DNA from: Emticicia aquatilis
GTDB taxonomy: Bacteria; Bacteroidota; Bacteroidia; Cytophagales; Spirosomataceae
NCBI RefSeq assembly: GCF_014644295.1
Contig: NZ_BMKK01000012.1
Span: 62,001-126,000 of the forward strand
Length of the DNA: 64,000 nucleotides
Direction: 5' to 3'
Position numbers and translations under genes: made by a program. Position 1 is the first letter of the stretch, and each line of letters starts with the position of its first letter. Of the stretch, positions 54,883 through 57,966 are shown piece after piece. Below the pieces are notes generated by a model. The model searched no databases. It was not told where the DNA came from and was given only the letters and a program-made list of their open reading frames with translations.

Positions 54883-55650
54883 TTATTTAGCTCCCATTCT
54901 TATCGCTCCATCAAGACGGATTACTTCGCCGTTGAGCATGGTGTTTTCGATGATGTGTTTTACTAAATTGGCAAACTCTGCTGGTCGGCCTAAGCGTGGT
55001 GGAAATGGCACTTGTTTTCCCAGCGAATCTTGAGCTTCTTGTGGTAGTGATGCTAATAAAGGCGTTTCAAAAATACCTGGAGCAATAGCCATTACTCTGA
55101 TGCCCATTCGAGCAAATTCACGAGCAATTGGCAAGGTCATGGCTACAATTCCACCTTTCGATGCCGAGTAAGCTGCTTGTCCGATTTGCCCATCAAAAGC
55201 TGCAACTGAGGCGGTGTTTATAATAATTCCTCTTTCGCCTTCGGTATTTGGTTCATTGTTTTGCATTTTATCGGCTACTAATCTAAGGGTATTGAAAGTG
55301 CCGATTAGGTTTATATTGATTACTTTCTGAAAGAAGTCCAGCGGATGTGGACCATCTTTACCAACTACTCTTTTCGCTGGGCCTACTCCTGCACAATTGA
55401 TGATTCCTTCGACACTTCCATAAGCTTCAATCGACTGACTAACAGCACTTTGCACTTGCACTTCGTTGGTTACATCAGTTTTTATGAATTTCGATTTTGT
55501 ACCTAAATTGCTTTGTGCGGTCGTTCCTGCTTCTTCGTTTACGTCGAGTAAAACAGCATTTCCGCCATTTTCTACAATCATTTTTGCAGTTGCGAAACCT
55601 AATCCCGAAGCTCCGCCCGTGATTAAGAATGTATTGTTTTCTATTTTCAT
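54883..55650 (-). CDS. SDR family 3-hydroxyacyl-CoA dehydrogenase (HSD10-like)
   Basis: The 255-residue SDR has TGGASGLG (about 11-18, NAD site), NCAG (about 86-89), the catalytic Ser in NTASVAA (about 150-156), and YSASK (about 168-172). The [21 protein letters not shown] region and [20 protein letters not shown] near the C terminus are typical of type II 3-hydroxyacyl-CoA dehydrogenases. In this cluster it would oxidise 3-hydroxy-3-arylpropanoyl-CoA to the beta-keto thioester, the step after the crotonase. Confidence 0.8.
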
Positions 55651-55664
55651 TTCTCGTTAAATTT

Positions 55665-55716
55665 TGGCACGCTGATAACGCCGATACTACGTAACGCTGA
55701 TTTATACTGATTTTTT
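55665..55716 (+). repeat. left arm of the GxxExxY cassette
   Basis: The arm contains TGGCACGCTGATAACGCCGA, then GTAACGCTGATTTATACTGA. It shares this layout with the elements at 40544 and 52491. Confidence 0.7.
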
Positions 55717-55724
55717 GCTACACA

Positions 55725-56116
55725 TTAATATTTTAATTTCTTTCGTGAATTTTCAAATATCTTACGTCTAAATTCAGGTTTTAAACCAAAATTTAAAAGT
55801 AAACCAACTTCTTTATCTGTTCCTCGAAGATAATTTATTAATTGATGTTCAAACTCAGGAACAATTGCTTCTGTTGCCTTTAATTCGAGAATAATTGTAT
55901 TATTTACCAACAAATCAGCATAGTACTCTCCAACTTCAAAGCCCTTAAAATGAACCTTTATTTGTTTCTGAGCCTCAACATCAAACCCTCTTGCCTTTAA
56001 CTCTAAATAAAGAGAGTTTTGATAAACTTTTTCTAAAAACCAAAGCCAAGTTCATTGTAAACATCGTAAAATGCCTTGATAATTGCCTCCGTTAATTCTT
56101 TATGCAATAATTCCAT
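55725..56116 (-). pseudogene. GxxExxY protein gene (PDDEXK_3-like), frameshifted
   Basis: From ATG 56116 the frame reads MELLHKELTEAIIKAFYDVY then NELGFGF and stops at TAG. One extra T in the GGTTTTT run would restore LEKVY and continue through GEYYADLLVNNTIILELKAT to TAA at 55725. The joined product of about 130 residues would be a GxxExxY family protein with a PDDEXK-like core (D in YYADLL, E-x-K in LELKA). The break falls inside the GxxExxY motif itself (GFLEKVY). It could be real decay, programmed slippage or a sequencing error in a homopolymer. Confidence 0.8.
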
Positions 56117-56120
56117 TTTT

Positions 56121-56168
56121 AAAATCAGTTTTTATCAGCGTTGGCACATCCGTCAAATCAGCGTGCCA
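56121..56168 (-). repeat. right arm of the GxxExxY cassette (inverted)
   Basis: Read leftward it runs TGGCACGCTGATTTGACGGA, then AACGCTGATAAAAACTGAT. It is an imperfect inverted copy of the left arm and abuts the CoA-ligase stop codon. Confidence 0.7.
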
Positions 56169-56169
56169 T

Positions 56170-57966
56170 TTAGGGATACATTTCATTTACCAAATCAAAT
56201 CTATGTTTCAAAACTGCTCTTTGATTCAATGAACCTTTATCGGTTATTTCGCCTAAATCAATCGACGGTGGTTCGATAGCAATTACATATTTTTTGATGA
56301 CAGTCGAGCTTCCTGTTGAGGTTTTATTGAACTCTGCCAGCCAATTATTGATAAATTTTTCTACTTCTACATTCAAATATGCTTCTTTATTTGAAATTTC
56401 GGGACTTAAATTAGCTAATTTTCGGCAAGCGTCAGCATTTAAAAATAAAATTGCCCCAATATACTCTTTGTCCAAACCAGCAAGCACCACATCTTGAATA
56501 ATTGGTGAGCCAGTTGAAATCACTTTTGCTTTCAAAACACCCACATTTACCCAAGTTCCTGTTGAAAGTTTAAAATCTTCAGCAATTCTTCCATCAAAAA
56601 CCAAACCTTTATCGGGGTTATTCTCATCTAAGAATTTTACGGCATCACCAGTTTTATAATAACCATCTTCATCAAAAGCCGCTGCCGTTGCTTCAGAGTT
56701 TCTCCAATAACCTTTTGTTACGTTGGGGGCTTTATAGCGAGCCTCCATTTTATCACCATCGGGTACGAGTTTCACATCCATCCCTGCCACTGGCACACCC
56801 AAAAGTCCAGAAAATGCTCCACCCCAATTGGCAAACATCGCCGAAGGTCCCGACTCAGTACAACCCAAACCCGTGATAATCGGAATTTTTACACCAATAG
56901 TTTCTACCGCCAATTCTTCCAAGCGATTCCAAACTGGTTGAGCCAAACTCGCCCCTGCATAAAACAAAATATTAAGATTTTTGAAGAAATTTTCACGCAA
57001 AGCAGGTTCTTTTTCAAGATATGGAATCAGCATTTCAAAACCTTTTGGCACATTAAAATAGGCCGTCGGAGAAATTTCTCGGAGATTCTGAACGGTTTCT
57101 TCGATACCTTTGGGTGTTGGCTTTCCATCATCAATCAAAATTGTTCCGCCATTATAAAGAGCCAATCCAAAGTTATGATTGCTACCAAAAGTATGATTCC
57201 ACGGAAGCCAATCAATGAAAATGGGCGGTTGTTGCTGCATAAACGGAAAAACCTGCGTAATCTGCTGTAAATTAGCACACCACATGCCCTGATGATTCAT
57301 TACGCCTTTGGGCAAGCCAGTCGAGCCAGAGGTAAACAACACCTTGGCTATCGTATCAGCGTTCACTTTTGTTGCGGCAGTTTCAACATCGGTCGTAGGT
57401 TTTGTAAGCAACATTTCTTGAAAATGCCCACCATTTTCTCCATCTGCGGTAATGACAATGGCTTCTGGGAAAATTGTTTTTGATAGTTCGAGAGCTTTTT
57501 GATAAACTTTTCCACTTTGAGCAAAAATGACTTTCGGAGTCATTAATTCAAGACAATGTTTGAGTTTGCCGAAATCATCAGAAACCAAAGAATACGGTGG
57601 AGAAATCGGCGTATAAGTAATGCCAATATGTACTGATGCTAAAACCAAAAGTGCGTGTTCAAGGCTATTCTCTGAGAGAATTACGACAGTTTCACCAGAT
57701 GTAAATTCCAGATTTATCAAATACTGGGCGATATTTCTTACCTTTTCGAAGGTTTCGGCATAAGATAATTTCTCCCAATCCTTCGTGACGAGATTTCTTC
57801 TACTGATAAACGTATGCTCAGGTTTTATTTTTGCCCAATGTTCTAATTTATCAGTAATTTTTATAGGAAAATCGGCCAATGCTTGCTCATTTTTGAAATG
57901 AACAATGCCATTTTCAAACTGTCTTTTATGAGTTTTAGTTGGGCCGAATGGCGTGTTTTTATACAT
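56170..57966 (-). CDS. feruloyl-/p-coumaroyl-CoA synthetase (AMP-binding)
   Basis: The 598-residue acyl-CoA synthetase has the AMP-binding core LFTSGSTGLPKGVMNHQGMW (about 206-225), the A5-type GLGCTESGP (about 377-385), YKTGDAV and DGRIAEDFKLSTGTWV (about 473-488) with the adenylate-binding Asp and Arg. The C-terminal loop keeps a Lys near GSLNQRAVLKHR. The N-terminal FGPTKTHKRQFENGIVHFKN and the RIAEDFKLSTGTWVNVG region are typical of feruloyl-CoA synthases. It should activate hydroxycinnamates to CoA thioesters. Natural partners are the crotonase 60 bp upstream and the SDR beyond the cassette. Confidence 0.85.
   Translation of the reverse strand: MYKNTPFGPTKTHKRQFENGIVHFKNEQALADFPIKITDKLEHWAKIKPEHTFISRRNLVTKDWEKLSYAETFEKVRNIAQYLINLEFTSGETVVILSENSLEHALLVLASVHIGITYTPISPPYSLVSDDFGKLKHCLELMTPKVIFAQSGKVYQKALELSKTIFPEAIVITADGENGGHFQEMLLTKPTTDVETAATKVNADTIAKVLFTSGSTGLPKGVMNHQGMWCANLQQITQVFPFMQQQPPIFIDWLPWNHTFGSNHNFGLALYNGGTILIDDGKPTPKGIEETVQNLREISPTAYFNVPKGFEMLIPYLEKEPALRENFFKNLNILFYAGASLAQPVWNRLEELAVETIGVKIPIITGLGCTESGPSAMFANWGGAFSGLLGVPVAGMDVKLVPDGDKMEARYKAPNVTKGYWRNSEATAAAFDEDGYYKTGDAVKFLDENNPDKGLVFDGRIAEDFKLSTGTWVNVGVLKAKVISTGSPIIQDVVLAGLDKEYIGAILFLNADACRKLANLSPEISNKEAYLNVEVEKFINNWLAEFNKTSTGSSTVIKKYVIAIEPPSIDLGEITDKGSLNQRAVLKHRFDLVNEMYP

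Follow-up and report, generated by a model that had tools for sequence, protein, structure and literature searches.

REPIN-RAYT systems (PMC3116915, PMC8266576) consist of palindromic intergenic repeats together with a solo nuclease gene (coding for the HuH transposase TnpA-REP) and gene-free hairpins, with co-evolution of protein and repeat, and the intervening sequences (IVS) of 23S rRNA are described (PMC4990558) as a small open reading frame (ORF) for a four-helix-bundle protein (S23/IVP) that lies within complementary ends and is scattered in its presence. The window analyzed here, a stretch of 64,000 nt from Emticicia aquatilis, contains a short segment between an acyl-CoA synthetase / CoA ligase gene and an SDR-family oxidoreductase gene that holds a gene of the GxxExxY family (PDDEXK_3) inside two inverted arms. 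This segment is probably the degraded remains of a minimal mobile element, one in which the nuclease would recognize its own arms. GxxExxY elements are similar to REPIN-RAYT in that intergenic palindromes go together with a solo nuclease gene whose protein tracks the repeat, and in the presence of gene-free palindromic intergenic elements with the same ends, but their enzyme belongs to the PD-(D/E)XK nucleases (PDDEXK_3) and not to the HuH enzymes, and their gene lies inside two arms built of several 7-nt units instead of accompanying a tagged stem-loop. Like the 23S rRNA IVS, they comprise one small ORF in complementary ends with scattered occurrence, though their protein is of a different family and the copy in the window lies between two protein genes and not in rRNA.

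Terminal inverted repeats around one gene are also a classical trait of insertion sequences (IS), and the additional presence of gene-free elements with the same ends is shared with IS and their miniature inverted-repeat relatives (MITEs). Unlike in IS, no DDE, HuH, serine, or tyrosine transposase was recognized in the window element, where GxxExxY is the only gene recognized, and GxxExxY elements show no fixed-length target duplication and have ends that vary between elements. The protein is similar to Cas4, RecB, and lambda exonuclease in its predicted fold and its D...ExK, QxxxY pattern but, at ca. 125 amino acids, is encoded alone between the arms. Elements with a single gene, inverted ends, and gene-free derivatives are known already; of the element families compared here, none matches GxxExxY elements in the class of its enzyme.

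The segment in the window fills the gap between the two flanking genes, which are co-directional (positions of all features are given in the table below). Its ends are a perfect inverted pair, TGGCACGCTGAT and ATCAGCGTGCCA, which had been given as 11 bp long in the original prediction made from the letters alone and actually measures 12 bp. We confirmed its further observations that imperfect arms of about 50 bp extend this pair inward on each side (with an inner 22-nt inverted match at 86%), that GxxExxY is the only recognizable gene within, and that the right and left ends of the segment lie 1 bp off the end of the CoA-ligase gene and 14 bp off the start of the SDR gene, respectively. The TTT noted on both sides is present as well, but its interpretation as a target duplication is unsupported across a larger set of elements (see below). 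The C-terminal open frame of the gene (105 amino acids) exceeds the curated cut-offs of both TIGR04256 (3e-30; 105 bits, cut-off 35) and PF13366 (3.4e-31; 108.5 bits, cut-off 22) and is thus a member of the GxxExxY / PDDEXK_3 family. The gene is frame-broken: its first frame encodes a 27-codon N-terminal piece, MELLHKELTEAIIKAFYDVYNELGFGF, that runs into a stop, the other 105 codons form an open stretch in a different frame, and the family match begins at profile position 21 in a profile search of the E. aquatilis genome. Intact relatives exist, and a programmed frameshift finds no support in view of relatives whose protein is open in one frame at at least 60 of 86 loci.

The end sequence recurs beyond the window: the 11-mer TGGCACGCTGA has 13 copies in the 6.75-Mb genome compared to one of its reversed control, and by our reading 9 of these 13 are ends of repeat elements while the other four (L006, L007, L008, and L013) look like chance matches within coding sequence. 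Inside the window alone and with two mismatches allowed there are 16 matches, a mild excess reached by 4 of 100 shuffles. The same genome contains gene-free elements with these ends (L009 and L003), and all three of its GxxExxY genes are armed, though with different arms that are made of CGCTGAT units in the window, of CGCAGAAAAACGC at a second locus (L014), and of CACGGAG at a third (L015) between leuA and leuB.

Beyond this species, we detected a GxxExxY gene in 39 of 58 genomes (E. aquatilis included) and scored arms by locally aligning the upstream flank with the reverse-complemented downstream flank, a measure independent of strand, with a score of at least 30 counted as a pass. Of 97 rows, one at a contig end and nine that were fragments or scored low were left out; the remaining 87 give 86 loci, since one gene was present as two fragments, and three of these loci had too little flank. 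With 300-nt flanks, 60 of the resulting 83 loci reached a score of at least 30 compared to 4.0% of 2042 mispaired flank pairs, and 43 of 83 reached at least 42 compared to 1.2%. A second, named set of 80 loci (three dropped) is mostly from Bacteroidota with few records labeled Planctomycetota, Spartobacteria, Acidobacteria, Chlorobi, Ignavibacteria, or Anaerolineae. Here, with 200-nt flanks, 47 of 77 loci passed compared to 10.4% of 2290 mispaired pairs, a background that is high because these loci share the arm style of one clade, and merely 7 of 516 neighboring ORFs at the same loci passed as a negative control. GxxExxY genes are thus in general flanked by inverted arms, but that all copies would have the particular ends seen in the window is not supported. 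Absence of these ends from other copies had been named beforehand as a finding that would tell against a mobile unit; it is true to the letter and not in spirit, as arm sequence varies between elements and each clade has an arm style of its own.

Comparison of species revealed the two features by which we judged mobility, namely copies of the same family at nonhomologous sites and empty orthologous sites. The proteins closest to the window copy (80.6% identity at L102 and 78% at L096) have ends in its dialect and no detectable flank homology to it, and any flank is shared by only 50 of 871 pairs with proteins at least 60% identical. Nine genomes of the genus, E. aquatilis included, have an SDR match (L109 to L117), and in four of them, again including E. 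aquatilis, the CoA ligase lies directly upstream. One of these (L112 in G007) has an empty site between the two genes, with 13 nt from stop to ATG; the gap holds a different palindromic insert, GGCAGATTTGTAATCTGTC, in G010 and a gene-free palindromic insert of CCCCCTAA / GGGGG style in G009 (L111). The latter may be a gene-free relic of the DUF559 family because small DUF559 genes elsewhere are flanked by C-run palindromes of a similar style. In the other five genomes the SDR match is merely 62% to 71% identical, and the CoA ligase was not found within the stretch examined. Gene and ends thus behave as a unit, in partial support of the mobile unit that the original prediction had proposed (given the empty site, the nearest proteins at unrelated sites with ends of the same dialect, and the gene-free copies), but the copy in the window itself is broken.

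Two further gaps were followed across species and found in many states. At the gap between leuA and leuB, where the flanks of E. aquatilis and an Emticicia record (L233) match at 88% and 98%, five genomes of the genus have one GxxExxY cassette in common and another genome (G003) has a different one. Two others have a four-helix-bundle gene instead (G009, L262; G010, L258, a copy with a stop), an 86-nt remnant in G007 retains, by our reading, the arms and a stretch of such a gene, and G006 has neither type of gene. For the gap between hemW and a hydrolase gene, we surveyed 150 genomes from the genus to which Flavobacterium lacisediminis belongs, with the L201 protein as query (gene in 136) and examined 90 of the 136 junctions from the top of the list, skipping two contig-end rows. 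A GxxExxY match is present at 22 of these junctions, at 21 of them inside the gap (at L303, it sits ahead of a remnant of the hemW end) and split over frames at L310 and L356. Seven others have GIY-YIG-type cassettes by their arm motif (CAGCATCT...AGATGCTGAA), and the remainder comprises 37 short inserts of 45 to 147 nt, 14 gaps no longer than 33 nt, nine other long inserts, and one masked junction. At least two units are found in 35 of the 37 short inserts, while 12 of the 14 empty gaps have none.

Intact copies are under purifying selection, given a median ratio of nonsynonymous to synonymous substitution rates (dN/dS) of 0.077 over the 46 pairwise comparisons among 12 Flavobacterium copies in which dS was 0.05 to 2. 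Together with the cassette shared at leuA-leuB by five genomes and the occurrence of GxxExxY at the hemW gap in 21 of the 90 Flavobacterium genomes, this could indicate a once mobile cassette that has been domesticated by the host for a cellular job such as DNA repair or operon regulation and whose arms are operators or binding sites. We consider such domestication unlikely: in sister species the same gap is either empty or taken by a short insert or a different cassette, so no site needs the cassette, and at 11 of the 86 first-set loci the gene has a stop or is reduced to a fragment, with the window copy being among the broken ones.

The arms have an internal structure of short units, which are spaced by steps of 9, 16, and 10 nt in the left arm and 9, 14, and 10 nt in the right arm of the window copy. 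Across 218 arms, 3-mers recur at distances of 9 to 10 nt and of 22 nt. Using a unit pattern, C[AG]CNN[AG][GT], that was picked after viewing the arms and is best suited to the CACAGAG and CGCAAAG clades, 134 of 283 successive unit steps are 9 to 10 nt long (ca. 0.4 in shuffles) and 33 more are 8 nt long (ca. 0.6 in shuffles for all three lengths). Among the 15 commonest quadruplets in these arms, 28 follow the scheme 9-10/11-14/9-10, most often as 10/12/10 and 9/12/9; the complete set of four regular units is legible in fewer than half of the arms. In 16 orthologous Flavobacterium cassettes (18 less two gapped ones), unit columns are 94% conserved compared to 71.5% of spacer columns. The two arms of one element agree better with each other than with arms of different elements at unit positions (94.6% versus 91.0%, reached by 2 of 2000 permutations) and in spacers (63.2% versus 57.6%, reached by 70 of 2000), and over all columns of the 18 cassettes their agreement is reached by 36 of 2000 permutations. 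Strict base-pair maintenance of the arms finds little support, with spacer and all-column agreement both marginal. On balance, the arms resemble recognized sites more than a maintained duplex, with some pairing possible.

These data also bear on whether GxxExxY elements might act at the level of the transcript in the way of the 23S rRNA IVS, with arms that pair in the operon mRNA, RNase III cutting the stem, the gene as a passenger, and only rare spread. The layout is the same, an ORF within complementary ends (PMC4990558), and the IVS protein family itself (PF05635) is what the four-helix-bundle gene of G009 encodes in the leuA-leuB gap, a protein-operon gap where other species hold GxxExxY. 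Gene-free copies fold well (z -7.8 for L009 and z < -2 for 23 of the 37 short inserts in the hemW gap, with mononucleotide shuffles), and the better agreement of arms within one element, clear at the units, would be in line with pairing, but units are far better conserved than spacers and spacer agreement within elements is barely raised. Counting one element per site between same-strand neighbors, 87 are co-directional with both neighbors and 7 are antisense. Were insertion random and copies kept without selection, both orientations would be expected about equally often, which means that either the element requires expression by read-through or copies in antisense disappear; the bias was rejected as proof of an RNA mechanism because ordinary ORFs at the same loci are biased similarly (150 co-directional to 16 antisense). 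The catalytic residues of the nuclease fold are conserved (see below), which likewise argues against a passenger. We therefore regard a transcript-level element as rather unlikely.

Inversion in place was also considered and rejected for L046, where the cassette was found the same way round and not flipped. Crossed flank matches occur in four pairs (L240/L245, L240/L253, L075/L093, and L034/L098). The cassette of L240 is truly opposite in orientation to those of L245 and L253 between the same two divergent genes in Flavobacterium, but these are probably separate insertions and not an inversion because their arms differ. The crossed match of L075 and L093 looks spurious, with both flanks shared in the same orientation.

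Small genes of three other families share the cassette plan with other arms. Among relatives of the window genome, to which these tests apply, arms scoring at least 30 flank four-helix-bundle genes at 23 of 30 loci (2.1% of mispaired flanks; 30 loci sampled from more than 140 rows), with 7- to 8-nt units visible by eye (L118 to L147). The same is true for small GIY-YIG genes with CTTCGACTCCGCTCAG or GTCATGCAGAGCG arms at 10 of 18 loci (7.2% mispaired; 18 of 30 loci sampled, with short frames; L148 to L168) and for small DUF559 genes with C-run palindromic flanks at 9 of 14 loci (4.4% mispaired; 14 of 15 short-frame loci), though some GIY-YIG and DUF559 flanks fold on themselves as palindromes and the arm score cannot tell paired arms from nearby hairpins. 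GIY-YIG and four-helix-bundle genes had been intended as negative controls, and since they scored positive the neighboring ORFs served as control instead. One relative has five head-to-tail GIY-YIG matches with a 407-nt period (G032:C46:91-1937).

That different gene families occupy the same gaps, and that the four-helix-bundle cassettes at leuA-leuB have arms similar to GxxExxY arms of the CACAGAG style, would also fit gaps and palindromes that are old hairpin hot spots (by cruciform extrusion or template switching) into which genes fall as passengers, the protein being unrelated to the arms. Such a scenario appears highly unlikely to us, as the other small-gene families mostly have other arm styles and the arms track the relatedness of GxxExxY proteins across sites and species. 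Over 96 elements (109 armed elements minus 13 without a clean protein), arm similarity correlates with protein identity at a Spearman coefficient of 0.386, while the best of 300 permutations reached 0.137. The correlation persists when flank-sharing pairs are removed (0.369 versus 0.121 in permutations) and among pairs with less than 60% protein identity (0.279 versus 0.156). This covariation fits a GxxExxY protein that would act on its own ends.

GxxExxY is, to our knowledge, a widespread family with no assigned function. In 15 diverse members, E27, D67, E77, K79, and Y95 are invariant and Q91 is near-invariant, and this D...ExK...QxxxY pattern is the one of RecB/Cas4 nucleases. The AlphaFold model of the L201 protein (mean pLDDT 96.3) gave SSO0001 (a Cas4), lambda exonuclease, and LHK-Exo as first Foldseek matches, while hidden Markov models of Cas4 match only weakly (15.3 bits for Pfam Cas4, below the cut-off of 22.7) and the search for a solved structure close by sequence returned a lone, unrelated match at E 0.85. 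Intact relatives are thus predicted to have a PD-(D/E)XK fold of the RecB/Cas4 group together with the catalytic residues D, ExK, and QxxxY. In the open literature, as far as titles and the starts of abstracts go and with most subscription papers outside this scope, nothing links GxxExxY or PDDEXK_3 to inverted repeats, and the word GxxExxY appears in two papers, a single time in each and in passing.

We propose that a GxxExxY element consists of a single gene for a small PD-(D/E)XK nuclease of the RecB/Cas4/lambda-exonuclease type inside two inverted arms of ca. 40 to 50 bp, each of which would be made up, in the clearest clades, of four 7-nt units as a pair ca. 9 to 10 nt apart, a step of ca. 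11 to 14 nt (16 and 14 nt in the window copy), and a second pair. Most likely, the protein binds to these units in its own arms and cuts there, and the resulting break, or an extruded hairpin, would start excision or copying into another narrow operon gap; binding, cutting, the dependence of movement on the protein, and the chemistry of movement are all inferred. A route by break and repair or by single strands and hairpins is favored because no fixed-length target duplication was seen, which speaks against classical cut-and-paste. Expression of the gene inside the cassette probably comes from read-through of the host operon, and internal loss would create gene-free hairpins that keep the ends and are perhaps moved by an intact copy.

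Several observations weigh against this interpretation. The evidence for movement consists of differences between species, and no element has been observed moving; the window copy cannot yield an intact protein in a single frame. Scores below 30 were obtained for 23 of the 83 loci of the first set and 30 of the 77 named loci, several with visibly degenerate arms and others with none, and the correlation of arms and proteins falls within permutations below 45% protein identity (0.101 versus 0.105). In 107 of 109 elements (two dropped), there is no support for a fixed-length target duplication, with a mean flank match of 2.53 nt compared to 2.29 nt for mispaired flanks and only a slight excess of matches of at least 6 nt (7 of 107 versus 2.6%). 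The best Foldseek E-value is 2.3e-3, with none reaching 1e-3. Using one query at E 1e-5, GxxExxY was found in 8 of 72,556 plasmid records and 0 of 50,697 phage records, a rarity that is odd for an active mobile gene. Occupation of one site in many Flavobacterium species and strong purifying selection suggest a stable resident with a possible host role, and action at the transcript level retains some weight because the IVS protein occupies the same kind of cassette.

The neighboring genes lie outside the element. The CoA ligase has NF009232 as its best NCBIfam model at 733.7 bits, under the model cut-off of 777, and the SDR gene is matched by many NCBIfam SDR models, none above its own cut-off among the 25 shown.

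Table. Features of the GxxExxY segment and its flanks (positions in the window) and loci of related cassettes
Feature	Position or loci	Strand	Basis
GxxExxY segment	55665-56168		
Perfect 12-bp end, left	55665-55676		
Perfect 12-bp end, right	56157-56168		
Inner inverted match (22 nt)	55693-55714 / 56121-56142		
Left arm (terminal inverted repeat)	55665..55715	+	Inverted match, read from sequence
Left-arm units	CGCTGAT 55670-55676, CGCCGAT 55679-55685, CGCTGAT 55695-55701, TACTGAT 55705-55711		
Right arm (terminal inverted repeat, read from 56168)	56119..56168	-	Inverted match
Right-arm units	56163-56157, 56154-56148, 56140-56134, 56130-56124	-	Read directly from sequence
GxxExxY (PDDEXK_3) gene, frame-broken	55725..56116	-	Family profiles and two frames
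Stop of the first frame	56033-56035		
Open frame of the remaining 105 codons	55725-56042		
Acyl-CoA synthetase / CoA ligase, upstream flank	56170..57966	-	Best NCBIfam model NF009232
SDR-family oxidoreductase, downstream flank	54883..55650	-	NCBIfam SDR models
GIY-YIG-type hemW junctions	L277, L278, L285, L324, L331, L350, L360		Arm motif; Pfam gene match in both tested (L277, L285)
Small DUF559 loci with C-run palindromes	L362, L371, L376, L379, L380, L382, L386		

More broadly, and tentatively, GxxExxY elements may represent a new minimal class of mobile DNA that is run by a stand-alone Cas4/RecB-type nuclease reading inverted arrays of 7-nt units. This class would be part of a larger guild of cassettes with a single gene and palindromic arms, others of which are driven by four-helix-bundle, GIY-YIG, or DUF559 proteins. 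Members of the guild would compete for the same operon gaps and be the origin of much of the intergenic hairpin content in Bacteroidota, with the 23S rRNA IVS as the one member already known; we regard this picture as plausible rather than probable. Should movement be driven by the nuclease alone, the enzyme would lie outside the transposase classes of mobile elements known to us. The link of GxxExxY to its own DNA ends offers a testable pair of enzyme and substrate for each clade, and the presence of the IVS protein in the same kind of cassette provides a handle on how the 23S rRNA IVS may spread. For the Bacteroidota, GxxExxY cassettes are a possible source of their intergenic hairpins.
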